Shown: piece by piece, positions 45,976 to 64,000 of the stretch | Position numbering within the stretch: position 1 is the stretch's first letter | Layout of the letters: the number at the start of each line of letters is the position of its first letter | The notes under the pieces: generated by a model | Databases searched by the model: none | Told to the model about the DNA's origin: nothing | The model's input: only the letters and a program-made list of their open reading frames with translations | Assembly (NCBI RefSeq): GCF_033344935.1 | Contig: NZ_JAWPMM010000001.1 | Location: 2,900,001-2,964,000 of the forward strand | Reading direction: 5' to 3' | Source: Reichenbachiella sp. | GTDB taxonomy: Bacteria; Bacteroidota; Bacteroidia; Cytophagales; Cyclobacteriaceae | DNA: 64,000 bases | Position numbers and translations under genes: made by a program

Positions 45976-48900
45976 ATGAGAAAGACTAATCAAATGACTA
46001 AATATATAATAGCCCTTGCTATAGCCTTAGCTGCATCAGTAAATGCAATTGCTCAGGCACCATACATCAATAGCATCAGCCCTACGTCTGCAGGAGTTGG
46101 ACAAGTTGTGAACATTACAGGAAGCAATCTTACTGGAGCTACGGTATTTTTCGGTGGCGTTGAATCTGGAACAGTAGACTTGAGTAATGCAGGAGCTGGC
46201 CTAGTTACTGCTACAGTACCTTTCGGAGCAACTTTTGATCAAATTTCTGTGCGTACTACCAATGGCATCGGATATTCCATGGAAAAATTTACTCCGACTT
46301 TTGATGGCAAATCTGTAACAGATGGTTCAACGGTTTTGGGAAACATGGGAGATCAAGAAATTTTTACGACATCAAGAACTCAAACACAAGACTTGTGTAC
46401 TTGTGATTTGGACGGAGATAATCTTCTTGACATAGCAATTACCAATGCAGGAAGTACAGATGGATTGATTTGGTTCAAGAATTCTTCTACCGTGGGAGAT
46501 GCTAATTTTGATGCAGCGGTTGTGATAGAAAGTCGCTTTACCATGACCAATGTGGTCTGTGATGATTTAAATGGAGATGGTTTTTCCGATTTACTGGGCA
46601 ATGAGCTAGGAAATGAAGGAAGCCTCTTTACTTATCTTAATGATGGAGCGGGTAATTTTGACATTGGCGAAGAGTGGACACTCCCAACTAACGGCGGTTT
46701 ATTCAGAAAGCCTGGGCGTATCGCTATCGCCGATTTGGATTTGGACGGTCTTCCGGAAATCATAGTCGCTACCGAAGATGACAATAAGGTCTATTATTTC
46801 GAAAATACTAGTACCGCCGTAGACATCGACTTTAATAGTACACCGGTAGCACTATCCGCAACTGAAAACTCAGGTACCGCTGGACTTGGCGGTCTTGATG
46901 TTGCCGATCTCAACAATGATGGTCTACCAGAAATTATCACATCCAATTTTACCGAATTGGGATACTATGTATTTCAAAACAACAGCCAGCCAAATACTAT
47001 AACATTCAGAGATCCATTGTTTGTTAATACAAATAGCAGTATTAGAACCTTAATAACCGGAGATCTAAACAATGATGGTTTTGCTGATGTAGTTCTAACC
47101 AATTCGGATATTAGTAGTAGTAACGTTATTGAAATTTCAGAGAATAGCACATCTTCTGCGGGCAGCGACATCAGCATGAAAGCACCTATATCCATCTTAG
47201 GGATTAGACAAAGCTGGGGAGTAGACTTAGGTGACATTGATGGAGATGGTGATTTAGATATTATAGTAGGATCAGAAATTGAAAATGGATTTTACACCGT
47301 AATGAACACAAACCCTTCGTCTATTGCTGCATCAAGTTATAGTGTCGGCCTAGTCGCAGAGTCCAATCTAAATAACGCTAGAAACATAAAAGTAGCAGAT
47401 TTTGATAATGATGGTCGCCCTGATTTCGCATATACTAATAACTCAAAATCTACGGCCAATGGTAATTTAGGTACGCGACTGAACGAAATATGTTTTGAGC
47501 CGGTAATCAGACCATCAGGTTCAACTATTCTTTGTACTGGTCAAACTGTAGATCTAATTGCACCAACAAGTGGATATTCTTATGCTTGGGAATTAAATGG
47601 TTCTACTACTGGTGGTGCTACCAATTCTCTTGTCGGTATCAATACCGCTGGCAATTACACAGTAACTATTTTAGACAACGCCGGATGTCAAGTAGAGTCT
47701 GCTGCAATTACTGTTTCTACCCCAACCGATGGCTATACACAACCAGCTATAATTGTAGATGATTCTACACCCTGTGGAGGAGACGATATAACTTTCACAA
47801 CCACTCCGGGTGGTGCTACTAGTGCCTATTTATGGAGCGGACCTAACGGATTTACAAGTACAAACCAAAACCCAACTTTGGCAGAAGTCACCTCTGCTGG
47901 TTCGGGCGAATATTATGTAACTGCTACATCAAGCACAGCAGGATGCCAATTTAAATCCAATGTTTTAGTTGTAACAGTAACGTCAATCCCCGTTGTTGCT
48001 GTCAACAATATAAAACCTGACTTTTTCTGTAGCTCTAGTTCATTGGAATTAACCACGAATGATTTCGGGGTAGATTATACCTATGATTGGAAACTAAATA
48101 ATGTGAGTACTGGAGAAACTGATCCCAGTGGATACACAGCAAATGCTGCTGGTGATTACAGCGTCACTATTACGGGGTCCGGGTGTTCTTATACGAGTGC
48201 AACCAGAACATTAACCACGGTAGCCTCTCCCACTTCAGCTTTCACTCCTTCTGACACTACCATTTGTGAAGAGGTGGAAGTCACATTCAACGCAACCTCA
48301 ACTGGAGCAAGTGAACTAAGTATTGTTAACCATTGGGATTTCAAGGACGGGAGTAGTACTGAAACAGGCGATGCTCTTACACATGCTTTTGCAACCGCGG
48401 GCACTTACGCTGTAACCCTTACAGCCAAGTATGATGGCATAGCCGATGCTGACTGTACGTATGCACCCGTGGACTCCACTTTGACGGTAGTCGCACCTCC
48501 TACAGATGTTGATCTGATTATATCTGATAATAGTGATTCAAATAATTTTGAAAAATGTAGTGATACCGCGCTCACGTTGAGACTTGAGGATATATATGAA
48601 ACCTATGCTTGGCGAATTGGCACGGATACTATCAGTCAAATTTCGATAGCAGAAGTTACTGTTGAAGCGGATGTTTTTGTTACTTTATCTGATAGTATCA
48701 AATGTATATATAGTACAGACGCTGTAACAGTATCCAATTATACAACAGGAGGAATTACGATTTCGGCCGATTCCAAAACCGTAGAGGATGATCAAGATTT
48801 GGGCAGAATAATTAATATGGATGAGGGCCAGTCTAGCATTACAATTTCTGTAAATAATGCTACAGAACCGGCATGGGAACCAGCTTTGTACATCGACGAT

Positions 48901-49293
48901 ACTACTGCCCTCTCAGTTGTCGTTTCAGTTTCAAACAAACAGCTTATATCAGTTTATGGAATTGACAACCTAGGTTGCCAAGAAAAAGATTCGGTCACTT
49001 TAGTTTTTCCAGGTGTAAACGCCGCAAAAAGCTTCACACCCAATGGAGATGGTATCGGTGATTGTTGGGAAGTATCAAATATTGGTGGTACCGATTGCCA
49101 GGTTGTGATTTTTGATAGCAAAGGAAGACGAATCAGAGAACTTTCGTTTAGTCCTGACGGAGGAGCCGATGATTGTGTTTGGGATGGCACTAAATCTAAT
49201 GGTTCTGCCCTACCTGATGGTATGTATTATTATTTCATTAGCTGCTCGGATAGTGGAAATGAAAGTAACGGATCGATATTTATGGCCAGATAA
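45976..49293 (+). CDS. FG-GAP/VCBS and PKD surface protein with T9SS type B sorting domain
   Basis: 1105 residues. Start at 45976, with a second ATG at 45994 that may be the true one. Signal peptide ends NAIAQA. IPT/TIG domain about 28-115 (INSISPTSAGVGQVVNITGS). FG-GAP/VCBS repeats about 130-500 carry seven calcium loops such as DLDGDNLLDIAI, DLNGDGFSDLLG and DIDGDGDLDIIVG. Ig-like/PKD region about 505-1000, with HWDFKDGSSTETG. The C-terminus (about 1015-1105), FTPNGDGIGDCWEV...DGMYYYFI, is the gliding-motility-associated type B sorting domain. A secreted or surface-exposed T9SS cargo, six bases after the PorP/SprF gene and probably secreted with its help. Confidence 0.9.
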   Translation: MRKTNQMTKYIIALAIALAASVNAIAQAPYINSISPTSAGVGQVVNITGSNLTGATVFFGGVESGTVDLSNAGAGLVTATVPFGATFDQISVRTTNGIGYSMEKFTPTFDGKSVTDGSTVLGNMGDQEIFTTSRTQTQDLCTCDLDGDNLLDIAITNAGSTDGLIWFKNSSTVGDANFDAAVVIESRFTMTNVVCDDLNGDGFSDLLGNELGNEGSLFTYLNDGAGNFDIGEEWTLPTNGGLFRKPGRIAIADLDLDGLPEIIVATEDDNKVYYFENTSTAVDIDFNSTPVALSATENSGTAGLGGLDVADLNNDGLPEIITSNFTELGYYVFQNNSQPNTITFRDPLFVNTNSSIRTLITGDLNNDGFADVVLTNSDISSSNVIEISENSTSSAGSDISMKAPISILGIRQSWGVDLGDIDGDGDLDIIVGSEIENGFYTVMNTNPSSIAASSYSVGLVAESNLNNARNIKVADFDNDGRPDFAYTNNSKSTANGNLGTRLNEICFEPVIRPSGSTILCTGQTVDLIAPTSGYSYAWELNGSTTGGATNSLVGINTAGNYTVTILDNAGCQVESAAITVSTPTDGYTQPAIIVDDSTPCGGDDITFTTTPGGATSAYLWSGPNGFTSTNQNPTLAEVTSAGSGEYYVTATSSTAGCQFKSNVLVVTVTSIPVVAVNNIKPDFFCSSSSLELTTNDFGVDYTYDWKLNNVSTGETDPSGYTANAAGDYSVTITGSGCSYTSATRTLTTVASPTSAFTPSDTTICEEVEVTFNATSTGASELSIVNHWDFKDGSSTETGDALTHAFATAGTYAVTLTAKYDGIADADCTYAPVDSTLTVVAPPTDVDLIISDNSDSNNFEKCSDTALTLRLEDIYETYAWRIGTDTISQISIAEVTVEADVFVTLSDSIKCIYSTDAVTVSNYTTGGITISADSKTVEDDQDLGRIINMDEGQSSITISVNNATEPAWEPALYIDDTTALSVVVSVSNKQLISVYGIDNLGCQEKDSVTLVFPGVNAAKSFTPNGDGIGDCWEVSNIGGTDCQVVIFDSKGRRIRELSFSPDGGADDCVWDGTKSNGSALPDGMYYYFISCSDSGNESNGSIFMAR

Positions 49294-49521: not shown

Positions 49522-52500
49522 ATGAATAGCTATAGAAAGATTTTTATCCTTATCCTGTGTATTGTACCCAATCTCCTTCTTGCTCAAGAGATTTGCGACG
49601 ATGGCATCGATAACGATAACAACGGGTTTGTGGATTGTTATGACAGTGCATGTTCAGGTGATGCCGCTTGTTCTGACTTCTACTTTGGTAACTCAGTAGT
49701 CTGTGACGACCCCGCCACACAAAACCCCGTCTTCCAAATCAAACTTCAATGGGCGTCTGCAGACAGAACAGCGTTCAACTCAGTAACTCCAGCCATTGGA
49801 GATATTGATGGAGATGGAATTCCGGAAGTTGTATCTACCAACAGACAGGACAACACTGTAACTATTCTAGATGGTGCTACTGGCAACACAGAACATGGCC
49901 CCTTGAATGTAGGATTCGATATCGCCAAAACCGTAGCTATAGCAAATTTGGATGATGATGATTGTGCCGAAATTTTTGTAAGAGGTTTCAAGAATAACAA
50001 TCTCAGAATGTACGATTGTGAACTCAATGAAATTTGGTCAGTTAATACAAATACAGGGGCTAAAGTAAGCCTTATCTCTCTTGCCGATTTCAATGGAGAT
50101 GGTGTAGTAGAACTTTTACACGGTAATGAAATAAGAAATGCACATGACGGCTCTGTCATTATCGCCGGTTTGGGTGACTTTCAAGATGACGAACTTCACG
50201 GAACCGTCGCTATTGACATATTGGATGATGGTGATTGTGCGAATTGTGAGGGACTGGAAATTGTAGCTGCTGGAAAAATTTATTCAGTTGACATCGCGAC
50301 ACAAACCAGAACGGTTGAAAGAGATATCAACGATATTCTTCCTGCCGGTTCAGAATTTGCCATCAAAAACGGATGGGGCTGGAATTTCAATACAGCCAGT
50401 GTGGCCGACTATAATCAAGACGGAACCATCGATGTACTACTAAGCGGTGGACAATATGTAAGTGGTTCCATTAAGACAGCAGTTTTTTTCTGGGATGTCG
50501 AAAACTTTAGTGCTACCAGTTATGTGGTTCCTCAAAACCACTCTGCAGGTACAGGCAGAATCAATATTGCAGATATTGATGGTGATGGTAAGATGAATTG
50601 TACTTTTGTTTCGAAACAAAGATTATATGCACTTGATGAGAACCTAACTCCCCTATCCACTTGGTTTGAAGGTAGCGGTACAGGATACAAAGACATTAAT
50701 GAGGGTTCCTCAGGATTTACCGGATGTACCGTTTTTGACTTTAATGACGACAAAGCTGCTGAGATCATTTATCGAGGGGAAAAATATGTACATATTATTG
50801 ATGGTACGACCGGTACATCCCTTAAACAAATTAAGTGTACGTCCAGGACTTTTGAAGAATACCCCGTAGTAGCCGATGTTGACGGTGATGGAGCAAGTGA
50901 AATATGTGTGTCTTGTTCTACTGACGACAACACCCCATTTACACCTTATAGTAATGGTCGTTATGCCCAAATTAGAGTTTTTGAAGCCGATGGCGGTGAA
51001 AACTGGCAGCCATCAAGACCCATTTGGAATCAGCATGGATATTTTAATGTCAACGTAAATGATGACCTTACCATTCCGACCAACATGCAGGATCCTGGGA
51101 AAATATTTTCAACCAACGTCTGTACGACCGGACCGAACAGACCATTAAATGCATTTCTTAATCAGGCACCTTATTTGAACGAAACAGGGTGCCCTTCTTA
51201 TGTTTCACCAGATATAGAATTAGTTCAGGTTAGTGGTGTTGGAGCCGCACAATGTCCTGAAGGAAGCTTCGACATTACTGTAACCATTGAAAATACTGGT
51301 GATATAGAACTCACGGGTTCAGTTCCGGTTACCTTTTATAATGGATCTCCAGATGAGGCCACTTCAACCAAACTAAATACAGTTTCAGCCACCTTGCAAG
51401 ATCTGGCTGTGAATGAAAGTATGGATATCAATACCTTCGTTGAAGGCAGCGGAGGCGACTTTGACCTTTATGTTTCTGTGAATGATGATGGATCTCAAAA
51501 TCCTCCTGTTACGAATTTCATCCGACCAGTACCAGAATGTGATGACTCAAATAATTTAACATTCACTGGAGTGGTGGCAGATCCATTTGACCTTCAACAT
51601 GAAATTGTAAGTCATAATGTAAAATGTGATCCTACTAAACCTGACAATGGCGATGCTAGGGTTTTCTATTTTGGTACAATCTCCGAAACAGTAGACGAAC
51701 TTTGGAAAGAGGATTTTCAAGACTTGGCTGTTGGAACGGACGAAGACAATGGTTCCACTGCTTGGTCATTTACTCAGCCTACTCCCTCTGATGCAGACAA
51801 TCTTGATGTGTCATTTACAGGCTCAACAAACGAGCTTTTCTTTGCCGATGTAGATGGTGAAGCAGAATGGATATCGGAATATGTTACTTTTTCGACTTAT
51901 GAGTCAGCCAATGTCTCTGTCGATATACGATCTAGCGCAAAATGTGATAAAAGCAATGATTATCTGAAATTATACTATCAGGTAGACGGAGGCAGTCTGC
52001 AGCAAATGAACTCTACCAAATTCAAAGGAAATTTTGGAACCTATACAGCTACTGCTAGTGGAATCACAGGGAATCAAATCAGATTTGTTGCGAGAGTTCA
52101 GAACAACTCCAATGACGAATTCTATTACATCGATAATGCTACCATTGAAGGAGTAAAAGATGCACAAAGTGGCGAAATCACTGCAGGATTTGATTTTCAT
52201 TGGTTCCAAAACAACAACTTTAATGATACCATTTTTACTGGAAACAGATATACAGCCCTTCCAGAAGGTAACTATCAAGTGGTGGGAAGTTCTCAAAGCA
52301 ATTCATGTACTTCCAATGTAGAAGACATTACAATCAATAGAGTGGAAGAATTGCCCGTTGTTGGCATTACAAAAACACAAGATCTTACAGATTGTGCCAC
52401 ACCTAATGGAATTTTGGATGCTTATGCTATTGAAAATGGGCTTCAAGTCACCTCTGGATACGATTTTGCGTGGTATATTGGTAACGACTTTACTACAGTG

Positions 52501-55500
52501 GTTGCTGTTGGTCCTACTGCCATCAACCTGGAAGCCAGAACTTATTCAGTTGTAGTTACAAATGAGGCCTCTGGTTGCGAATCAACCCTTTCTGAAACCG
52601 TCGACACCAATCAGACTACACCTGGTATTTTCCAGGACAATGTATCCCATGTCACTGACTGTATTGATTTCGAAAGTGGTTCTATCACGGTGAGTTCGGA
52701 TGGTCCGGCTTCAGACTATACATTTAACTGGTACAACGGATCTGAGGTAAAAGCCACACCAGATTATACTGATTCTGGAACTTCTGGAGCCACCTACGAC
52801 AACCTGGAAGCGGGATTTTATACGGTTGAAGTTCAAGAAAACTCATCTAAATGTTTCTCTGGTTCAATTACAATTCAGGTAGAAGATAACTCGGCGTCTC
52901 CAGATATTGTTATGACACTTGGAGCAAACTCATCATGTACAGATAATGGAAATGGATTAGCTACTGCTGAGATCAATGGAGGTATATTAACCGATTACAC
53001 CTTTACCTATTATGAAGGCTCAAATTCTATACCAGCTAATCAAGTTTCAACAACCAGTGGTACACAAGGAGAAGTTGCTCAGTTGTTGTCAGCTGGAAAT
53101 TATTTAGTAACTGCCGAAGAAATATCAACAGGTTGTGTTGGACGTGCATATTTTACCATTGTAGATAATATCACGAATCCTTCCACTCCTCCTTTTAATG
53201 AAATAGCTGTTTTGGATGTCACGTCTTGTAACGGTCTTGGACAAGGAGATGGTTCAGTTGATGCTTCAGGAGTCAATATGGCTGCAGTAGATACTGATGA
53301 GTTTGAAGCGGTTGTTAACGGTAGTTTTGAGGTACCAAACATTTCTGTAGCTCCCTACAACAAACCAGGAAGCTGGACTTTGTTAGATCAATCAGCTGCC
53401 TTGGGATGGTCTACGACCAACCCTTCTGGAAATCTTGAATACTGGGATGATGGGTTTCAGGGTGTTCCAGCATATGAAGGAGAACAATTTGCGGAAATTA
53501 ACTCTGATGGCTTCGGAGCCTTTTATTTCGACGTTGTAACCAAACCAGGTGTGAGAATGGTTTGGTCTTTTGCCCATAGAGGTAGAAACGGTACTGACGT
53601 TGTAGCGCTTAAAATAGATGATCCTGCAGCTGGTACTCCTACAACAATTGAAACAGCATCTACAGATAATACGGCTTGGCAAGTATATTCTGGAGAATAT
53701 ACCATCCCTGATGGTCAAACCATTACTAGATTCTCTTTCGAAGCCATTAGTGCTGCGGGTGGAGCCACTGTTGGTAACTTCTTAGATGGAATTGTTTTTG
53801 AAGTCGCACCTTATTATTTTCAGCTATATGCAGGTAGCAACTCATCGGGAAGTCCTCTAGCAGAAAACACCACTGGTCTTTTTGAAAACCTTGACGAAGG
53901 AACATATACCTTATCTATTGTAAACAATATCACAGGTTGTCCTACAGATGATATTCCAATCATCATCAACTTTAATGAGCAAGAGCCATTATTAGTTAGA
54001 CAGCTAAAAACTGGGGATGAGTATTGTGTTGATGGAAATGGAACTCAGAGAATCACGGCCTCTACAGAAAGTGGTGATCCAACTAATGGATACCGATATG
54101 AGATTTACGCAGGGACAGATACCACAGTGGCACCTTATTCAGGACCATTTGTTGATCCTGATGGAGATTACACTTTTACAAATCTGGAGGACGACACTTA
54201 CCGTGTGGTTGTTGTAAGTAGAGACAATGAATGTCGTGGTTTTACGGATATAACCATATTGGATGACTCAGAAGTACCTTCTTTCTCTAACTTCATTGTA
54301 AATAACAATACATCTTGTTCTGGTGGCGCCAATGGACAGATTATTGCCAATGTATTTGGAGAGTCTAAAGAAGATTTTTACTGGTCATGGACTGATAACG
54401 CAGACAATCCAATAAAAACCAATATTGATGGAGCAGTTGATGGAACCGCCAATCTCCTGGATAACTTATCGGCTGGAACTTTCAAAGTATCAGCCACTCA
54501 CAAGGTGACCGGATGTACGACTGGGTTTCAGAGTAGTGATGTCATCGACGATCCGTCAGGCAACTTCCCTACCATCATTTTATCTGAAGAAACAGAAAAT
54601 ACTGTTTGTAGTGGTGTAGGTAATGGATCCATAAAAGCTTTGGTCAATGAAGGAGCAGGTGCAATAGACCCTATTGGATACACTGTGGAGTGGTTTTTAG
54701 GGCCCGATGACTTGGGTACACAATTAGTCGATGGTGTTGATCCTGGCAACAACTCTTTACCTGTGTTCTCCGGAGGTGCTGATCATATTGTAGATGGGTT
54801 AAATGCTCCTGTAAGCGACAACGAGTACACAGTTAGAATAACAAATGCTGATGGTTGTGCAAATACTGCTACTATTACTTTGGGTAATAATCCAACAACT
54901 CCAGTTATTGATAGTACAGATCCAGGAGATGTTGTTATAACAGAAGTTGAATCATGTCCGGGGGGAGTCAACTACCCTGAAGGGCAAATTGAGTTAACTG
55001 ATGTAACAGATACAGGATTTACCAATGCATCTGACGACTTCTCGTATGTTTGGTACTTTGGTTCTTCAAACGATCCATCTAATGTGATTAACGATGGCGA
55101 TAATATTGGCACACTGAAAGGAGAAGCTGCAACTGCGGTTAATGTTTCATTCACAGGTGCTCCAGCTACCAACCATATTGTTGGCCTGAACACAGGCTTC
55201 TACACCGTAGAGGCGACCAACACTACCACGGGTTGTGTGTCTGATCCGGTAACCATCGAATTGACTGAAAGCTTAGCCACCATCACTATGGGTGAGGCTA
55301 ACAATACCAACCAAACCAATTGTGATGACAACTTCAATGGTAGTATCGAAATCTCTGCCACTGGTGCAGGAGAAACGTTCGTCTACACCTTCTTTGTTGG
55401 AGCTAATACCGATGCGGCCAACCAAATCGATATCGCTCCTCGCAATGCTGAAGCGGATTACGATCAAGTGACCATCTCTGGTGATGTAAACACCAATCTG

Positions 55501-58500
55501 GCGACTATCGAAGACCTACCGAAAGGTACTTATACCGCCGAAGCGGTGAGCAACACCACTGGTTGTAGCGAAACTTATGAATTCATCATCGGTGAAGTAA
55601 TCACTACTCCGGTAATCACTGATGCTGATACCGGACCTGCTGGTACCGATGTACTCCTTACTGAAGTCACTTCTTGTAGCGGTGGACCAACAGACCCTAA
55701 TGGAGTCATCCAATTACTTGATGTGGTAGCCGGTGCGGATAATGATCCGGTCGCTGACTTTAACTACACCTGGTACTTCGGAGCTTCTAATGATCCGGCC
55801 AATGTGATCGATGATGCAGATGATATTTATACTCAGAAAGGGGAAACACCAGTATCTACCATTGATGTAACTGGATCTACTACCAGTACCATCTCTAACT
55901 TAAGTGCTGGATTCTATACCGTAGAAGCTATCAACAATACGACCGGATGTACCTCTGCTCCTGTTACTATCGAATTGACTGAGAATCTGGCTACCATCAC
56001 CATGGGTGAAGCCAACAATACCGATCAATCGAACTGTAATACAAACTACAACGGTAGCATTGATATTGATGCCAACAGTGCTGGTGAAACCTTCGACTTT
56101 ACTTTCTATGTGGGTGCCAATACGGATGTGTCTAATCAAATCGATGTGGCACCTCGTAACGCAGAAGCGAATTACGATCAGGTAAGCGTAACTAACGATG
56201 TGGGTACCAATACTGCCAATATCGATAACCTACCTAAAGGTACTTATACGGCCATGGCAGTAAGTAACACGACTGGATGTAGTGATACTTATCAGTTCGT
56301 TATTGGGGAAACATTTACTACTACAGTAATTACTGATGCCGATACCGGACCTGCTGGTACTGATGTATTACTTACTGAAGTGTCTTCTTGTAGCGGTGGA
56401 CCAGCTGATCCTAATGGTGCTATCCAACTACTTGATGTGGTAGCCGGTGCAGAAAACAATCCTGCTACTCAATTTACCTACACTTGGTACTTTGGCTCTT
56501 CTAATGACCCGGCCAATGTCCTCGATGACAATGATGATATCTATACGCAAAAAGGAGAAACACCTGTATCTACTATTGATATAGTCGGTTCTACTTCTAG
56601 TACAATCCAAAATCTAAGTGCTGGCTTCTACACCGTAGAGGCGACCAACACTACCACGGGTTGTGTGTCTGATCCGGTAACCATCGAATTGACTGAAAGC
56701 TTAGCCACCATCACTATGGGTGAGGCTAACAATACCAACCAAACCAATTGTGATGACAACTTCAATGGTAGTATCGAAATCTCTGCCACTGGTGCAGGAG
56801 AAACGTTCGTCTACACCTTCTTTGTTGGAGCTAATACCGATGCGGCCAACCAAATCGATATCGCTCCTCGCAATGCTGAAGCGGATTACGATCAAGTGAC
56901 CATCTCTGGTGATGTAAACACCAATCTGGCGACTATCGAAGACCTACCGAAAGGTACTTATACCGCCGAAGCGGTGAGCAACACCACTGGTTGTAGCGAA
57001 ACTTATGAATTCATCATCGGTGAAGTAATCACTACTCCGGTAATCACTGATGCTGATACCGGACCTGCTGGTACCGATGTACTCCTTACTGAAGTCACTT
57101 CTTGTAGCGGTGGACCAACAGACCCTAATGGAGTCATCCAATTACTTGATGTGGTAGCCGGTGCGGATAATGATCCGGTCGCTGACTTTAACTACACCTG
57201 GTACTTCGGAGCTTCTAATGATCCGGCCAATGTGATCGATGATGCAGATGATATTTATACTCAGAAAGGGGAAACACCAGTATCTACCATTGATGTAACT
57301 GGATCTACTACCAGTACCATCTCTAACTTAAGTGCTGGATTCTATACCGTAGAAGCTATCAACAATACGACCGGATGTACCTCTGCTCCTGTTACTATCG
57401 AATTGACTGAGAATCTGGCTACCATCACCATGGGTGAAGCCAACAATACCGATCAATCGAACTGTAATACCAACTACAATGGTAGTATCGATATTACAGC
57501 AGCTAGCGGTGGAGATACTTTCGACTTCTTCTTCTATGTAGGAGCTAATACAGATGTATCTAATCAAATTGATATCAATCCTCGTAACCTGGAAGCTAAT
57601 TACGATCAGGTAGTGGTTACCAATGATGCAGGTACGACTACTGCTAATATTGATAACCTGCCAAAAGGTACTTATACAGCTATGGCGGTAAGTAATGTCA
57701 CTGGATGTAGTGAAACTTATCAGTTCGTTATTGGTGAATTACTCACCACTACTGTAATCACGGATGCTGACACTGGACCGGCAGGCACTGATGTGTTGCT
57801 TACAGAGGTTTCTTCTTGTAGCGGTGGACCAGCTGATCCTAATGGAGCAATTCAATTGCTAGACGTAGTAGCCGGAGCAGAAAGTAATCCTGCCACTCAA
57901 TTTACCTACACCTGGTACTTTGGCTCTTCTAACGATCCGGCCAATGTCCTCGATGACAATGATGATATCTATACGCAAAAAGGGGAAACTCCGGTTTCTA
58001 CCATCGATATCGTAGGGTCTGCTTCTAATCACATTCAAAACCTAAGTGCAGGCTTCTACACCGTAGAAGCGACCAACACTACCACGGGTTGTGTGTCTGA
58101 TCCGGTAACTATCGAATTGACTGAAAGTCTGGCTACCATCCTCATGGGTGAGGCCAACAATACCAATCAGACCAATTGTGATGACAACTTCAATGGTAAC
58201 ATTGATATCACAGCAGCTAGCGGTGGAGATACTTTCAACTTTACTTTCTATGTAGGAGCTAATACTGATGTGGCCAACCAAATTGATATCAATCCTCGTA
58301 ACCTCGAAGCGGATTACGACCAAGTACTTGTGACTAACGATGCTGGTACAACTACAGCCAATATTGATAACCTACCCAAAGGTACTTATACAGCCGAAGC
58401 TACCAGTCTGGTAACCGGTTGTAGCCAAACTTATGAATTCATCATCGGTGAAGTAATCACTACTCCGGTAATCACTGATGCTGATACCGGACCTGCTGGT

Positions 58501-61500
58501 ACCGATGTACTCCTTACTGAAGTATCTTCTTGTAGTGGCGGACCTACTGACCCTAATGGAGTCATCCAATTACTTGATGTGGTAGCCGGTGCTGATAATG
58601 ACCCAGTCGCTGACTTTAACTACACCTGGTACTTCGGAGCTTCTAATGATCCGGCCAATGTGATCGATGATGCAGATGATATTTATACTCAGAAAGGGGA
58701 AACACCAGTATCTACCATTGATGTAACTGGATCTACTACCAGTACCATCTCTAACTTAAGTGCTGGATTCTATACCGTAGAAGCTATCAACAATACGACC
58801 GGATGTACCTCTGCTCCTGTTACTATCGAATTGACTGAGAATCTGGCTACCATCACCATGGGTGAAGCCAACAATACCGATCAATCGAACTGTAATACCA
58901 ACTACAATGGTAGTATCGATATTACAGCAGCTAGCGGTGGAGATACTTTCGACTTCTTCTTCTATGTAGGAGCTAATACAGATGTATCTAATCAAATTGA
59001 TATCAATCCTCGTAACCTGGAAGCTAATTACGATCAGGTAGTGGTTACCAATGATGCAGGTACGACTACTGCTAATATTGATAACCTGCCAAAAGGTACT
59101 TATACAGCTATGGCGGTAAGTAATGTCACTGGATGTAGTGAAACTTATCAGTTCGTTATTGGTGAATTACTCACCACTACTGTAATCACGGATGCTGACA
59201 CTGGACCGGCAGGCACTGATGTGTTGCTTACAGAGGTTTCTTCTTGTAGCGGTGGACCAGCTGATCCTAATGGAGCAATTCAATTGCTAGACGTAGTAGC
59301 CGGAGCAGAAAGTAATCCTGCCACTCAATTTACCTACACCTGGTACTTTGGCTCTTCTAACGATCCGGCCAATGTCCTCGATGACAATGATGATATCTAT
59401 ACGCAAAAAGGGGAAACTCCGGTTTCTACCATCGATATCGTAGGGTCTGCTTCTAATCACATTCAAAACCTAAGTGCAGGCTTCTACACCGTAGAAGCGA
59501 CCAACACTACCACGGGTTGTGTGTCTGATCCGGTAACTATCGAATTGACTGAAAGTCTGGCTACCATCCTCATGGGTGAGGCCAACAATACCAATCAGAC
59601 CAATTGTGATGACAACTTCAATGGTAACATTGATATCACAGCAGCTAGCGGTGGAGATACTTTCAACTTTACTTTCTATGTAGGAGCTAATACTGATGTG
59701 GCCAACCAAATTGATATCAATCCTCGTAACCTCGAAGCGGATTACGACCAAGTACTTGTGACTAACGATGCTGGTACAACTACAGCCAATATTGATAACC
59801 TACCCAAAGGTACTTATACAGCCGAAGCTACCAGTCTGGTAACCGGTTGTAGCCAAACTTATGAATTCATCATCGGTGAAGTAATCACTACTCCGGTAAT
59901 CACTGATGCTGATACCGGACCTGCTGGTACCGATGTACTCCTTACTGAAGTATCTTCTTGTAGTGGCGGACCTACTGACCCTAATGGAGTCATCCAATTA
60001 CTTGATGTGGTAGCCGGTGCTGATAATGACCCAGTCGCTGACTTTACCTACACTTGGTACTTCGGAGCTTCTAACGATCCAGCCAACGTGATCGACGATG
60101 CAGACGATATCTATACACAGAAAGGAGAAACTCCAGTCTCTACCATTGATGTAACTGGATCTACTACGAGCATCATCTCCAACCTAAGTGCCGGATTCTA
60201 TACCGTAGAAGCCATCAACAATACTACTGGATGTACCTCTGCTCCTGTCACTATCGAGTTGACTGAGAATCTAGCGACCATCCTCATGGGTGAAGCCAAC
60301 AACACTGATCAGTCGAACTGTAATACCAACTACAATGGTAGTATCGATATTACAGCAGCTAGCGGTGGAGATACTTTCGACTTCTTCTTCTATGTAGGAG
60401 CTAATACAGATGTATCTAATCAAATTGATATCAATCCTCGTAACCTGGAAGCTAATTACGATCAGGTAGTGGTTACCAATGATGCAGGTACGACTACTGC
60501 TAATATTGATAACCTGCCAAAAGGTACTTATACAGCTATGGCGGTAAGTAATGTCACTGGATGTAGTGAAACTTATCAGTTCGTTATTGGTGAATTACTC
60601 ACCACTACTGTAATCACGGATGCTGACACTGGACCGGCAGGCACTGATGTGTTGCTTACAGAGGTTTCTTCTTGTAGCGGTGGACCAGCTGATCCTAATG
60701 GAGCAATTCAATTGCTAGACGTAGTAGCCGGAGCAGAAAGTAATCCTGCCACTCAATTTACCTACACCTGGTACTTTGGCTCTTCTAACGATCCGGCCAA
60801 TGTCCTCGATGACAATGATGATATCTATACGCAAAAAGGGGAAACTCCGGTTTCTACCATCGATATCGTAGGGTCTGCTTCTAATCACATTCAAAACCTA
60901 AGTGCAGGCTTCTACACCGTAGAAGCGACCAACACTACCACGGGTTGTGTGTCTGATCCGGTAACTATCGAATTGACTGAAAGTCTGGCTACCATCCTCA
61001 TGGGTGAGGCCAACAATACCAATCAGACCAATTGTGATGACAACTTCAATGGTAACATTGATATCACAGCAGCTAGCGGTGGAGATACTTTCAACTTTAC
61101 TTTCTATGTAGGAGCTAATACTGATGTGGCCAACCAAATTGATATCAATCCTCGTAACCTCGAAGCGGATTACGACCAAGTACTTGTGACTAACGATGCT
61201 GGTACAACTACAGCCAATATTGATAACCTACCCAAAGGTACTTATACAGCCGAAGCTACCAGTCTGGTAACCGGTTGTAGCCAAACTTATGAATTCATCA
61301 TCGGTGAAGTAATTACTACTCCGGTAATTACCGATGCAGACACTGGCCCTGCTGGTACAGATGTATTGCTTACTGAAGTATCTTCTTGTAGTGGCGGACC
61401 TACTGACCCTAATGGAGTCATCCAATTACTTGATGTGGTAGCCGGTGCTGATAATGACCCAGTCGCTGACTTTACCTACACTTGGTACTTCGGAGCTTCT

Positions 61501-64000
61501 AACGATCCAGCCAACGTGATCGACGATGCAGACGATATCTATACACAGAAAGGAGAAACTCCAGTCTCTACCATTGATGTAACTGGATCTACTACGAGCA
61601 TCATCTCCAACCTAAGTGCCGGATTCTATACCGTAGAAGCCATCAACAATACTACTGGATGTACCTCTGCTCCTGTCACTATCGAGTTGACTGAGAATTT
61701 GATTGCCATAGTTCCGACCGTATCTGTAACTCAAGATGACTTTAGTTGTGATTTAGCAACTCCGACCGGACAGGTTACAGCGAATATCACCACCTATGAT
61801 GGTTCCCCAGTAACAGATAATACTGGCTTTACCATTGAATGGTTTACTGGAACTAATACATTGCCTGCCAATTTACTTCCAGGGGCCATTGCAGGGTCGG
61901 TGGCAACTCAAGACGCAGGCCCAAATACTAATGATCATATCATAAGTAACTTACCTGATGGTACATATACGGTTAAAGTAACACACGACAACTTGGGATG
62001 TTTTACTACGGAGCAAGTCGTAATTAGAAGAGCAACACCAATAATGAGTTTGACTTATGATGTCAATCAGGATCAAACCGACTGTACACCTGACGGTGAA
62101 GTTGAAGTAACAGCCATAGGACTTACTTATTCCGATGGAGGTGGAGCGCCAATTAACTTTACACCTTCCTACACTTATGAATTCTATGAAGGACAAGATG
62201 AGTTTGGTACAGTACTACAAGCCAATAGTGTAAACCCAGTTTTAACAGGGCAAGTATCTGGATATTACACAGTTATTGCCACTGAAACTAATTCCGGTTG
62301 TAAAAGTGACCCATTTACTCAATTTATAGATGATTTGACTCCAGCTGCCCCAGCTGTAAATATTGCCTATGGCATATTACCTACAGACTGTGCATCTGCT
62401 ACAGGAACCATTGATGCCACATTAGGAGCTGATGCGAATATTACTTTTGAATGGTGGGAAGGTTCCGATGACTATACTGACGAAGTCCAAAATGGCATCG
62501 ATGGCATATCCCCAATCAATCCTGCGGGATATAACACAGACGGTAATACAGGTACTACTACTTTAACTGGCCTTGAATCCGGATTGTACTCATTAATTGT
62601 TGATTATACAGGGTCTACACAGTGTAGATATCAGATTGTTTATGACCTACCATTTGTTGGGCAGCAAGCTACAACTACAATTGCGGTTGAACATGTGGAA
62701 GAGTGTCCAGACGATGGAAGTGCTGAAGTCGGTATTTCTGAAAGTATTTTCATAACCTATACGGCGACAAATGGTTTCAGCTTTGATGATGGTGAAACTG
62801 TGGCTGCATTACCAAGTGGAGCAACGGGTACTGTGAGTAATAATACAGATGGAGTCTCAATGAGAATTTCTACCACTTCTTCTCCTGCTTCATTTACAGA
62901 TGCAGATGGTATTACCGGTCAACTTAGTGGGGCTACTGCAGATATAGATATACTTACTCCAGGATATTCAGATGGCAACTTCGATGATATATCTGAATAT
63001 GACATCTATCTCTATGCTGGGGATGGTGTACCAGCAGATCCATTAGCAAACTATACTGTTAATGGCATTACCTATCCGTTAATCAATTTATCATCAGGTA
63101 GAGCCGCGGCAGATAATGATCCAGGAGATGTGGTTCAGTTCACAGGGTTGCCAGCAGGGGATTATACCGCAGTTGCCAGACAGATTAATAATCCTGCTTT
63201 TGCTCCTGCCAATACTGACAGATGTTTTTCTGCAAGCGCAGTGGAAACTATTGAGCAACGTGCCTATACACCATTCATTGATGGTTTTACAATTACAGAC
63301 AACACAGTATGTGATGGAGACCCTGGAGATGGTGAAATCACTGTAGTCGCGAAAAAAGATGCTGAAGACACATATGGTCCATTCGACCGTCCCGAGGACT
63401 TTGAATTTAGATGGTTTGTAGTAGGTGCAGAAACCTATCCTGGAGATGAATTATTGGTTGAGCAGCATGAGACCACTTCTACTCTATCCAATCTGGGCCC
63501 AGAAGACTACATCGTAAAAATTTATAGAATCGTTGGAGGAGCAGGTCCGGCATCTTATGTATATTCAGGCTGCTCCGTTGAAGGAACTTACACCATCAAC
63601 ACAGACCCTCAAGAACATACCATTGATGCGCTGACCTCCATTGCTCATATTGAAGACTGTGGTGCAACTGGCTCAGCTACTGTGGAAGATGCTGATGTTA
63701 CTTCTGGAGATAGAGATGATTATGACTTTACTTGGTATGAAGATGATGCGGTTACTCCTATAGCAACAGCTGCCAATGACTATGAACTCCTTGGTCTGGC
63801 TGCTGGTACTTACTTTGTAGAAGCTGAGCACGTATTGTTTGGCTGTAACACCCCAATGATTGAATTCGAGATCGAAGATCAAACGGTGGTACCAACGCTT
63901 AGCCTCACCCTTAATGCCATTGATACAAGCTGTGATACAGATCCAAACGAAGGAAATGGAGCAATTAACTGGTCTATCACTAACGATGATGGTGGTAACT
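49522..64000 (+). CDS. Giant secreted repeat protein (adhesin-like), 3' end outside window
   Basis: ATG at 49522, then an uninterrupted frame to the window edge: at least 4826 residues. I followed the frame through the array without meeting a stop. Signal peptide about 1-22 (ILCIVPNLLLAQ). A Cys-rich metal-binding-like motif (CDDGIDNDNNGFVDCYD) follows, then FG-GAP/VCBS repeats about 90-480 (GDIDGDGIPEVV, ADIDGDGKMNCTF, ADVDGDGASEICV). The segment RPIWNQHGYFNVNVNDD (about 503-519) is a motif often seen in large Bacteroidota surface proteins. Then diverse Ig-like, SprB-like repeats each with a Cys pair (about 700-1920), nine identical-length 238-residue modules (1923-4064), and further diverse repeats. 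The expected type B sorting domain lies beyond the window. Probably a gliding or attachment adhesin. Confidence 0.88.
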   Translation, partial: MNSYRKIFILILCIVPNLLLAQEICDDGIDNDNNGFVDCYDSACSGDAACSDFYFGNSVVCDDPATQNPVFQIKLQWASADRTAFNSVTPAIGDIDGDGIPEVVSTNRQDNTVTILDGATGNTEHGPLNVGFDIAKTVAIANLDDDDCAEIFVRGFKNNNLRMYDCELNEIWSVNTNTGAKVSLISLADFNGDGVVELLHGNEIRNAHDGSVIIAGLGDFQDDELHGTVAIDILDDGDCANCEGLEIVAAGKIYSVDIATQTRTVERDINDILPAGSEFAIKNGWGWNFNTASVADYNQDGTIDVLLSGGQYVSGSIKTAVFFWDVENFSATSYVVPQNHSAGTGRINIADIDGDGKMNCTFVSKQRLYALDENLTPLSTWFEGSGTGYKDINEGSSGFTGCTVFDFNDDKAAEIIYRGEKYVHIIDGTTGTSLKQIKCTSRTFEEYPVVADVDGDGASEICVSCSTDDNTPFTPYSNGRYAQIRVFEADGGENWQPSRPIWNQHGYFNVNVNDDLTIPTNMQDPGKIFSTNVCTTGPNRPLNAFLNQAPYLNETGCPSYVSPDIELVQVSGVGAAQCPEGSFDITVTIENTGDIELTGSVPVTFYNGSPDEATSTKLNTVSATLQDLAVNESMDINTFVEGSGGDFDLYVSVNDDGSQNPPVTNFIRPVPECDDSNNLTFTGVVADPFDLQHEIVSHNVKCDPTKPDNGDARVFYFGTISETVDELWKEDFQDLAVGTDEDNGSTAWSFTQPTPSDADNLDVSFTGSTNELFFADVDGEAEWISEYVTFSTYESANVSVDIRSSAKCDKSNDYLKLYYQVDGGSLQQMNSTKFKGNFGTYTATASGITGNQIRFVARVQNNSNDEFYYIDNATIEGVKDAQSGEITAGFDFHWFQNNNFNDTIFTGNRYTALPEGNYQVVGSSQSNSCTSNVEDITINRVEELPVVGITKTQDLTDCATPNGILDAYAIENGLQVTSGYDFAWYIGNDFTTVVAVGPTAINLEARTYSVVVTNEASGCESTLSETVDTNQTTPGIFQDNVSHVTDCIDFESGSITVSSDGPASDYTFNWYNGSEVKATPDYTDSGTSGATYDNLEAGFYTVEVQENSSKCFSGSITIQVEDNSASPDIVMTLGANSSCTDNGNGLATAEINGGILTDYTFTYYEGSNSIPANQVSTTSGTQGEVAQLLSAGNYLVTAEEISTGCVGRAYFTIVDNITNPSTPPFNEIAVLDVTSCNGLGQGDGSVDASGVNMAAVDTDEFEAVVNGSFEVPNISVAPYNKPGSWTLLDQSAALGWSTTNPSGNLEYWDDGFQGVPAYEGEQFAEINSDGFGAFYFDVVTKPGVRMVWSFAHRGRNGTDVVALKIDDPAAGTPTTIETASTDNTAWQVYSGEYTIPDGQTITRFSFEAISAAGGATVGNFLDGIVFEVAPYYFQLYAGSNSSGSPLAENTTGLFENLDEGTYTLSIVNNITGCPTDDIPIIINFNEQEPLLVRQLKTGDEYCVDGNGTQRITASTESGDPTNGYRYEIYAGTDTTVAPYSGPFVDPDGDYTFTNLEDDTYRVVVVSRDNECRGFTDITILDDSEVPSFSNFIVNNNTSCSGGANGQIIANVFGESKEDFYWSWTDNADNPIKTNIDGAVDGTANLLDNLSAGTFKVSATHKVTGCTTGFQSSDVIDDPSGNFPTIILSEETENTVCSGVGNGSIKALVNEGAGAIDPIGYTVEWFLGPDDLGTQLVDGVDPGNNSLPVFSGGADHIVDGLNAPVSDNEYTVRITNADGCANTATITLGNNPTTPVIDSTDPGDVVITEVESCPGGVNYPEGQIELTDVTDTGFTNASDDFSYVWYFGSSNDPSNVINDGDNIGTLKGEAATAVNVSFTGAPATNHIVGLNTGFYTVEATNTTTGCVSDPVTIELTESLATITMGEANNTNQTNCDDNFNGSIEISATGAGETFVYTFFVGANTDAANQIDIAPRNAEADYDQVTISGDVNTNLATIEDLPKGTYTAEAVSNTTGCSETYEFIIGEVITTPVITDADTGPAGTDVLLTEVTSCSGGPTDPNGVIQLLDVVAGADNDPVADFNYTWYFGASNDPANVIDDADDIYTQKGETPVSTIDVTGSTTSTISNLSAGFYTVEAINNTTGCTSAPVTIELTENLATITMGEANNTDQSNCNTNYNGSIDIDANSAGETFDFTFYVGANTDVSNQIDVAPRNAEANYDQVSVTNDVGTNTANIDNLPKGTYTAMAVSNTTGCSDTYQFVIGETFTTTVITDADTGPAGTDVLLTEVSSCSGGPADPNGAIQLLDVVAGAENNPATQFTYTWYFGSSNDPANVLDDNDDIYTQKGETPVSTIDIVGSTSSTIQNLSAGFYTVEATNTTTGCVSDPVTIELTESLATITMGEANNTNQTNCDDNFNGSIEISATGAGETFVYTFFVGANTDAANQIDIAPRNAEADYDQVTISGDVNTNLATIEDLPKGTYTAEAVSNTTGCSETYEFIIGEVITTPVITDADTGPAGTDVLLTEVTSCSGGPTDPNGVIQLLDVVAGADNDPVADFNYTWYFGASNDPANVIDDADDIYTQKGETPVSTIDVTGSTTSTISNLSAGFYTVEAINNTTGCTSAPVTIELTENLATITMGEANNTDQSNCNTNYNGSIDITAASGGDTFDFFFYVGANTDVSNQIDINPRNLEANYDQVVVTNDAGTTTANIDNLPKGTYTAMAVSNVTGCSETYQFVIGELLTTTVITDADTGPAGTDVLLTEVSSCSGGPADPNGAIQLLDVVAGAESNPATQFTYTWYFGSSNDPANVLDDNDDIYTQKGETPVSTIDIVGSASNHIQNLSAGFYTVEATNTTTGCVSDPVTIELTESLATILMGEANNTNQTNCDDNFNGNIDITAASGGDTFNFTFYVGANTDVANQIDINPRNLEADYDQVLVTNDAGTTTANIDNLPKGTYTAEATSLVTGCSQTYEFIIGEVITTPVITDADTGPAGTDVLLTEVSSCSGGPTDPNGVIQLLDVVAGADNDPVADFNYTWYFGASNDPANVIDDADDIYTQKGETPVSTIDVTGSTTSTISNLSAGFYTVEAINNTTGCTSAPVTIELTENLATITMGEANNTDQSNCNTNYNGSIDITAASGGDTFDFFFYVGANTDVSNQIDINPRNLEANYDQVVVTNDAGTTTANIDNLPKGTYTAMAVSNVTGCSETYQFVIGELLTTTVITDADTGPAGTDVLLTEVSSCSGGPADPNGAIQLLDVVAGAESNPATQFTYTWYFGSSNDPANVLDDNDDIYTQKGETPVSTIDIVGSASNHIQNLSAGFYTVEATNTTTGCVSDPVTIELTESLATILMGEANNTNQTNCDDNFNGNIDITAASGGDTFNFTFYVGANTDVANQIDINPRNLEADYDQVLVTNDAGTTTANIDNLPKGTYTAEATSLVTGCSQTYEFIIGEVITTPVITDADTGPAGTDVLLTEVSSCSGGPTDPNGVIQLLDVVAGADNDPVADFTYTWYFGASNDPANVIDDADDIYTQKGETPVSTIDVTGSTTSIISNLSAGFYTVEAINNTTGCTSAPVTIELTENLATILMGEANNTDQSNCNTNYNGSIDITAASGGDTFDFFFYVGANTDVSNQIDINPRNLEANYDQVVVTNDAGTTTANIDNLPKGTYTAMAVSNVTGCSETYQFVIGELLTTTVITDADTGPAGTDVLLTEVSSCSGGPADPNGAIQLLDVVAGAESNPATQFTYTWYFGSSNDPANVLDDNDDIYTQKGETPVSTIDIVGSASNHIQNLSAGFYTVEATNTTTGCVSDPVTIELTESLATILMGEANNTNQTNCDDNFNGNIDITAASGGDTFNFTFYVGANTDVANQIDINPRNLEADYDQVLVTNDAGTTTANIDNLPKGTYTAEATSLVTGCSQTYEFIIGEVITTPVITDADTGPAGTDVLLTEVSSCSGGPTDPNGVIQLLDVVAGADNDPVADFTYTWYFGASNDPANVIDDADDIYTQKGETPVSTIDVTGSTTSIISNLSAGFYTVEAINNTTGCTSAPVTIELTENLIAIVPTVSVTQDDFSCDLATPTGQVTANITTYDGSPVTDNTGFTIEWFTGTNTLPANLLPGAIAGSVATQDAGPNTNDHIISNLPDGTYTVKVTHDNLGCFTTEQVVIRRATPIMSLTYDVNQDQTDCTPDGEVEVTAIGLTYSDGGGAPINFTPSYTYEFYEGQDEFGTVLQANSVNPVLTGQVSGYYTVIATETNSGCKSDPFTQFIDDLTPAAPAVNIAYGILPTDCASATGTIDATLGADANITFEWWEGSDDYTDEVQNGIDGISPINPAGYNTDGNTGTTTLTGLESGLYSLIVDYTGSTQCRYQIVYDLPFVGQQATTTIAVEHVEECPDDGSAEVGISESIFITYTATNGFSFDDGETVAALPSGATGTVSNNTDGVSMRISTTSSPASFTDADGITGQLSGATADIDILTPGYSDGNFDDISEYDIYLYAGDGVPADPLANYTVNGITYPLINLSSGRAAADNDPGDVVQFTGLPAGDYTAVARQINNPAFAPANTDRCFSASAVETIEQRAYTPFIDGFTITDNTVCDGDPGDGEITVVAKKDAEDTYGPFDRPEDFEFRWFVVGAETYPGDELLVEQHETTSTLSNLGPEDYIVKIYRIVGGAGPASYVYSGCSVEGTYTINTDPQEHTIDALTSIAHIEDCGATGSATVEDADVTSGDRDDYDFTWYEDDAVTPIATAANDYELLGLAAGTYFVEAEHVLFGCNTPMIEFEIEDQTVVPTLSLTLNAIDTSCDTDPNEGNGAINWSITNDDGGN
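55195..57470 (+). repeat. Identical 848-bp direct repeat, 1428 bp apart
   Basis: 55195-56042 and 56623-57470 read the same base for base by eye, starting at GGCTTCTACACCGTAGAGG and diverging after AACTGTAAT. This indicates very recent duplication or gene conversion. Confidence 0.85.
55288..61713 (+). repeat. Tandem array of nine 714-bp modules (238 aa)
   Basis: The module landmark MGEANN begins at 55288, 56002, 56716, 57430, 58144, 58858, 59572, 60286 and 61000, always exactly 714 bp apart, and the array ends at 61713. Each module encodes two Ig-like units (about 105 and 133 residues) with landmarks GANTDVxNQIDI, NLPKGTYTA, DTGPAGTDVLLTE, CSGGP, YTWYFG, LSAGFYTVEA. Modules alternate between two versions (NTNQTNC and NTDQSNC), so the true period is 1428 bp. 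A degenerate half-module lies at about 54900-55287. Confidence 0.95.
57179..61308 (+). repeat. Near-identical 1.4-kb repeats within the array
   Basis: 57179-58620 and 58607-60048 are identical by eye over about 1.44 kb. About 1 kb of this recurs again at 60313-61308. The ends of the identity blocks do not match module borders, as expected for unequal crossing over and gene conversion. Confidence 0.8.

Follow-up and report, generated by a model that had tools for sequence, protein, structure and literature searches.

A giant SprB-like T9SS adhesin gene in Reichenbachiella, with as many Ig-like domains before as after a central domain in most complete orthologues

The window analyzed here is a stretch of 64,000 nucleotides, positions 2900001-2964000 of a genome that consists of a single contig of 4,878,078 bases. 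We place the organism in Reichenbachiella because the carrier of its giant adhesin is 92% identical to the R. faecimaris carrier. The giant's frame starts at window position 49522 on the plus strand and is open to the window end, for 4,826 codons. When the window is joined with the adjoining stretch, there is no stop until genome position 2973086, and the full protein has 7,854 residues. The initial annotation of the window had proposed a single open frame of at least 4826 residues over the last 14.5 kb, and had asked for a T9SS sorting domain past position 64000. The frame holds, and the sorting domain is there: the last 100 residues or so are a CHU_C type B domain (PF13585, 80.3 bits, cut-off 27), type B by Pfam and not by NCBIfam, where TIGR04131 gives 26.4 of 35 bits. 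Most of the protein is a string of about 63 Ig-like domains, 62 of which have a cysteine pair. The features at the locus, in window coordinates, are as follows.

44368..45969, plus strand: upstream carrier of the PorP/SprF family, extended at its C-terminus by about 245 residues; no cysteine in this extension-bearing protein
45976..49293, plus strand: FG-GAP and PKD protein; type B sorting domain by both CHU_C (50.2 bits) and TIGR04131 (43 bits)
49522..64000, continuing to genome position 2973086, plus strand: giant adhesin gene, open frame, 7,854 residues in all
49522..49587, plus strand: signal-peptide-like N-terminus, residues 1-22, by eye
49585..49671, plus strand: acidic double-disulfide motif NF033662, below cut-off (28.7 of 41 bits)
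49789..51093, plus strand: FG-GAP beta-propeller-like region by profile, residues about 90-524, of which residues 395-524 match 6mlt_A (E 1.1e-15)
51238..51573, plus strand: domain 0, CARDB-like, a weak match (13 bits, cut-off 22.7)
51565..52341, plus strand: Ig-like domain N1, which carries a large insert (C-C 227 residues)
53167..53973, plus strand: Ig-like domain N5, which carries a large insert (C-C 237) and resembles CBM_4_9 at E 0.03 only
55261..61686, plus strand: array 1, with 18 SprB-type Ig-like domains (domains 10-27) in nine modules of 238 residues
61687..63606, plus strand: conserved middle block, domains 28-32 (M-3 to M+1)
62644..63258, plus strand: central domain M0 (domain 31), with an insert and the motifs GQQATTTI and VPAD
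63598..64000, plus strand: first part of the right arm; array 2 lies further on, outside the window, from genome position 2964486

Orthologues of the giant are present in all eight Reichenbachiella genomes, and so are its N-terminal 693 residues (8/8). The signal peptide of the initial annotation agrees with what we see by eye, and its calcium-loop repeats correspond to FG-GAP repeats (FG-GAP_3, E 1.4e-14). A model of the inserted domain N5 alone has a pLDDT of 35 and is unusable. The central domain M0 has no Pfam match at E-values up to 1.

It had also been proposed that the giant lies behind a PorP/SprF gene, as in SprB. A PorP/SprF-family partner does exist, but it is downstream: a barrel gene 6 bases after the giant's stop (TIGR03519, 246.7 bits vs. 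a cut-off of 90.55; PF11751, 231 bits), found directly downstream of the giant in all six complete Reichenbachiella giants that we read. A cognate sprF-like gene directly downstream is what is reported for type B substrates in F. johnsoniae (PMC12618676). The upstream PorP is the less likely partner, because in 8/8 Reichenbachiella genomes it is directly followed by, and forms a conserved pair with, the FG-GAP protein of about 1,110 residues that has its own type B C-terminal domain; it probably serves this next gene and not the giant. The extension of about 245 residues in the upstream PorP, which has no Pfam match above cut-off, may bind the cell wall. A SPOR domain suspected by eye in the tail of protein P0003 has no Pfam support.

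The giant's carrier ends in GLCPVYF, a tail with a single cysteine that recurs in 8/8 Reichenbachiella genomes. This tail cysteine is kept in 30/30 best-matching loci of the family (the giant's own carrier included), and occurs in 0/29 of the best-matching loci taken from elsewhere in the class; at no more than 41% identity, these are probably paralogues. F. johnsoniae SprF has a C-terminal CxC, of which the second cysteine bonds to GldK, a protein with Cys285 and Cys343 (PMC12635249). The CxC tail is not found in the giant's carrier, where there is one tail cysteine only. GldK is present in the genome (448.8 bits, cut-off 350), and it has two central cysteines 56 residues apart (58 in F. johnsoniae numbering), the second of them 120 from the end, as well as a third cysteine near the end; by numbering, the pair may correspond to that of F. 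johnsoniae. For GldJ, a frame of 415 residues matches TIGR03524 in three pieces of 137, 135, and 70 bits, below the cut-off of 458. Gliding is reported as positive for six Reichenbachiella type strains (PMC10752948). The proposal of a T9SS-type giant adhesin of the SprB kind is supported, as a type B protein with a PorP/SprF partner in a gliding genus.

A giant of this kind could also be a stationary adhesin, used for attachment or in biofilms and held in place by its PorP-type carrier instead of travelling on the gliding track. The missing CxC tail would fit such a protein, and so would the N-terminal similarity to 6mlt_A, which we take to be from the biofilm protein Bap1. On the other hand, a tail cysteine kept in every one of those family loci argues against it. 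Moreover, the gene after the giant's carrier is an M24 peptidase and not PorE-like, whereas a second giant in the same genome does have the PorP plus PorE-like gene layout that is proposed for non-mobile adhesins (PMC9143113). We regard a stationary adhesin as unlikely.

This second giant (genome positions 4330968-4344605, minus strand, 4,546 codons) has a type B sorting domain, and its carrier, with a TPRYF tail lacking cysteine, is followed by a PorE-like TPR-PD40-CarboxypepD_reg-OmpA protein. Antisense to its repeats runs a plus-strand frame of 2,285 codons (L027:6744-13598, the second giant being L027:4968-18605), which probably arises from the codon usage of the repeats. There are six PorP-family genes in the genome. 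One of them, at genome positions 735751-736812 and divergent to a frame of 1,747 codons, encodes a protein that also has a tail cysteine (KCPLPMIF) and belongs to a class found in 8/8 Reichenbachiella genomes; it is possibly a second track-linked carrier.

The giant has two repeat arrays. Array 1 is, as first described, a run of nine modules of equal length (714 bp, 238 residues) without a single length change, and along its 18 domains the C-C spacing alternates between 81 and 91. The alternation of the module between two versions is also real. A 710-base probe taken from the last modules has 76-78% DNA identity to the odd-numbered neighbours and 83-99% to the even-numbered ones, and there are exact runs of 848, 1,441, 1,001, and 330 bp at a lag of 1,428 bp, while at a lag of 714 bp no exact run reaches 100 bp. 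Array 2, outside the window at genome positions 2964486-2969935, has units of 1,269 bp, each with four domains, that are DNA-identical over 5,450 bp (about 4.3 copies).

The module had been thought to be a possible new repeat type, next to SprB-like Ig repeats elsewhere in the protein. Profile-profile comparison does not support a new domain: the 238-residue module is two consecutive SprB-type domains with an immunoglobulin-like fold (probability 98.6, E 1.1e-15, both cysteines aligned). The relation is visible by profile-profile comparison only, as the best match of the Pfam SprB repeat (PF13573) in the giant has 18.8 bits, below the cut-off of 28. The closest solved chain by profile is the grappling hook protein GhpA of Aureispira (9flp_A, E 1.3e-27), and GhpA fragments also rank high by fold, which would suit a prey-catching hook. 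However, that match covers the Ig-like repeats with a low score per stretch (33 bits at best), and we find a GhpA-like hook very improbable.

The two cysteines of the domain are invariant. In 903 profile matches, taken from 27 complete or partial giants, every covered cysteine position has its cysteine, and for that reason their pairing cannot be read from a joint loss of partners. A structure model that covers three domains only (pLDDT 74) places the invariant cysteines, by strand order, between strands A and B and between strands F and G. In the standard Ig fold, these two positions are at opposite ends of the domain. If the model is right in this respect, we conjecture that such an arrangement would favour bonds between neighbouring domains.

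We now compare the giants of different species (genomes are given as G numbers; G000 is the genome of the window). The six complete Reichenbachiella giants (G000, G120, G119, G122, G068, and G123) have 62, 54, 42, 46, 34, and 40 cysteine-pair domains, and they have in common three colinear blocks, namely the first nine domains, the middle five, and the last ten. M0 sits in the middle block. Before and after M0 there are, in the same order of genomes, 30/31, 26/27, 20/21, 22/23, 16/17, and 20/19 cysteine-pair domains. When domain 0 is included, the two arms become 31:31, 27:27, 21:21, 23:23, 17:17, and 21:19. In 5/6 of these species, the array-2 zone has two domains more than the array-1 zone.

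A profile search with M0 finds it in 26/390 genomes of the family and in 9/84 genera, with E-values up to 1e-20. Of these 26 genomes, 13 have giants that were counted and 13 were left out: G072, G112, G318, and G369, with frames that run off contigs; G118, which ends at a contig end; G109, without the N-terminal part; and G059, G061, G088, G281, G285, G299, and G333, with short or contig-end frames. The seven further two-ended giants have arms of 35:35 (G048), 37:37 (G028), 21:21 (G007), 27:27 (G262), 19:19 (G349), 15:17 (G106), and 26:29 (G100). Thus the arms are equal in 10/13 complete orthologues, which range from 35 to 75 domains. When the right arms are permuted among the giants, none of 1,000,000 permutations reaches 10/13, the best having nine. 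G103 (27:27) stays outside this main count because its M0 is placed by position only and is absent from the profile matches; with it, 11/14 giants have equal arms. In G016, which has no M0 match, there is no clear centre.

The arms are different in sequence even though their domain numbers are equal. They also differ in residues, by a ratio of about 1.04-1.49 with arm starts approximated. Since domain counts are equal and residue counts are not, the number of domains is what is kept. Two of the orthologous giants are larger than that of the window, G028 with 8,445 residues and G048 with 8,894 residues (from the preceding stop). G072 has an M0-bearing frame of 7,715 codons that runs off one contig and a frame of 3,975 codons at the start of another; if these are one gene, the protein exceeds 11,000 residues. 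Near the N-terminus, the left-arm inserts (LamG-like and others, by eye) differ between genera in G007, G103, G262, and G349, as if they were exchanged binding modules.

An obvious concern is that equal arms are an artefact of counting or assembly, or else an echo of shared ancestry. The counts are of cysteine pairs, searched from residue 600 in Reichenbachiella and from residue 500 elsewhere. Because of these different starts, the automatic search picks up domain 0 only in other genera (and in G123 in one count), and for Reichenbachiella it was added. In G007 and G262, an interval of about 390 residues with two full profile matches around an insert that by eye is LamG-like was counted as two domains. 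In G028 and G100, N1 and the preceding Ig-like domain lie below the search start and were added by reading the sequence; the added domain of G028 has a Big_9 match (37.1 bits, cut-off 23.6). The hand corrections in these four giants were made after mismatches were seen, a point in favour of the artefact, as are the three deviating giants. The half-domain profile count agrees for all six Reichenbachiella giants at 3 bits, while thresholds of 0, 5, or 8 bits give some of them a difference of one or two. Outside the genus the profile-only count is patchy: at 0 bits and before adding domain 0, it gives 35:32 for G048, 14:16 for G106, and 17:18 for G349.

Without any correction, right minus left is 1 in G000, G120, G119, G122, G068, G007, and G262, -1 in G123, 0 in G048 and G349, 2 in G028 and G106, and 5 in G100. 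The uncorrected arms are therefore within one domain of each other in 10/13 giants, and 0/100,000 permutations reach that, which argues against a counting artefact. All five single-contig genomes (G000, G119, G120, G028, and G262) have equal arms, G262 after the double-domain split and G028 after the two N-terminal additions. The deviating giants, on the other hand, are all from drafts, of 20 (G123), 120 (G106), and 60 contigs (G100), though equal giants also occur among drafts of 10 to 270 contigs (G122 and G068 with 10 each, G007 with 60, G349 with 100, and G048 with 270). G100 has a shortened domain inside its array (C-C 47), which is what one would expect from a deletion or a collapsed assembly.

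As for shared ancestry, all 13 counted giants are from one family, and close species share some domains of the array zones (up to 80% identity between G119 and G068), such that the arm lengths are not fully independent. In the window's species, however, the best match of an array-1 domain within its own protein has 88-100% identity, and its best match in any one of five other species has 27-59%; for the domains of zone 2, the values are 73-100% and 35-59%. With so much higher identity within the protein than between species, the present arrays of the window's species must have grown after the species parted. Taking all this together, we judge it decidedly unlikely that artefact or ancestry accounts for the equal arms.

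A second regularity concerns the spacing of the cysteines. Longer and shorter domains alternate in both arms in most giants, and the C-C spacings at mirrored positions are anticorrelated, with r of -0.65 or lower in 9/12 giants tested (G103 included; G068 and G106 are too short to test), three of the nine being based on 4 to 7 positions. In G028, G100, and G123, r is near zero and there is no pattern. Both arms of G262 alternate in the opposite sense to those of G000, and its mirrored domains are still opposed in size. Because the period of alternation is two in both arms, there are just two possible phases. In most giants, moving the arms by a single domain matches domains of like size about as well, so that the spacing does not fix the exact register.

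SprB-like proteins are usually seen as single-file strings. Under that reading, the giant is an extended string with the propeller at its tip, and M0 is a hub (a lectin, a cross-link, or a dimer site) that selection holds at mid-height. An N-terminal part conserved throughout the genus, with the similarity of residues 395-524 to 6mlt_A, is what one expects of a binding tip. But a single file gives no reason for exact equality of domains over 35 to 75 domains, and none for the mirrored long-short spacing either, and we find it rather improbable on that account.

The simplest reading that equal domain numbers around a conserved centre suggest is a chain folded back on itself, in which any change in one arm must be matched in the other. 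The giant would then be a SprB-like mobile T9SS type B adhesin with two equal antiparallel arms folded back at M0, an interpretation to which we give somewhat better than an even chance. By analogy with the work on F. johnsoniae, the carrier would take the exported chain from the translocon and stay bound to its C-terminal domain, and the cysteine of the carrier's periplasmic tail would bond to GldK, such that the adhesin rides the gliding track. In Reichenbachiella, the two arrays lengthen the two arms in step. The least certain step is a single claim, and for it the chances seem to us about balanced: that the chain turns at M0 and its arms run antiparallel as a double cable, with M0 outermost and the N-terminal propeller back at the base, near the sorting domain and the carrier. 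Bonds formed by the two invariant cysteines of each domain would shield the domain cores from the pulling force.

The expected size can be worked out. An Ig domain is about 4 nm long, and half of 63 domains would measure about 125 nm. For SprB, with about 6,500 residues, a filament about 150 nm long is reported (PMC13104615), and 200 nm is also given (PMC12635249). A filament of 150 nm would be short for a single file of Ig domains, a comparison that is suggestive only. Going further, a class of gliding adhesins might be fold-back double cables: antiparallel Ig-like arms zipped in register, a turn at a central domain, the propeller back at the carrier, and a length set through matched growth of two unrelated arrays. 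We rate this claim slightly below even. Should it hold in general, the fold-back would also account for SprB filaments that seem roughly half the length expected from the size of the protein.

For the build of SprB-like adhesins, and for the way in which they resist the pull of the gliding motor, the conserved equal-arm rule gives a testable structural hypothesis. It names a probable turning point, M0, and it predicts filament length from sequence. It also shows one gene in which the copy numbers of two repeat arrays are coupled. Whereas the SprB-type module is already known, the coupled equal arms may be new: among the titles listed from the open PMC literature there is no fold-back or equal-arm account of SprB, one of the searches being too generic in its words for a clean negative. 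Finally, the single-cysteine carrier tail is a natural variant on which the disulfide-to-track mechanism that was reported in 2025 could be tested (PMC12635249).

Among known systems, the PorP-PorE anchored type B proteins (P. gingivalis PG1035 and the six porP-porE pairs of F. johnsoniae) are alike in that a type B sorting domain is bound to a PorP-family barrel (PMC9143113). They differ in the PorE-like gene, which is not found beside the giant's carrier, and in the cysteine that the giant's carrier has in its tail. GhpA of Aureispira sp. CCB-QB1 (PDB 9flp and others) is likewise a giant string of related Ig-like domains, and differs in being a prey-catching assembly. The chain 6mlt_A, named 'hemolysin-related protein' and presumably the beta-propeller of Vibrio cholerae Bap1, resembles about 130 residues of the FG-GAP region, and the rest of the giant does not match it. 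The likeness to SprB-SprF of F. johnsoniae extends to a giant, repetitive protein with a type B sorting domain and an SprF-family gene directly downstream, to SprB-type Ig-like repeats with the same cysteine frame, and to a gliding host that has GldK, with a cysteine pair that may be comparable. On the other hand, the repeats here are mostly about 85-125 residues long, compared to about 75-80 in SprB, and score below the Pfam SprB cut-off, and the carrier has one tail cysteine where SprF has CxC. The FG-GAP repeats near the N-terminus are a further difference, and M0 and the equal arms, as seen in the giant and its orthologues, may be others.
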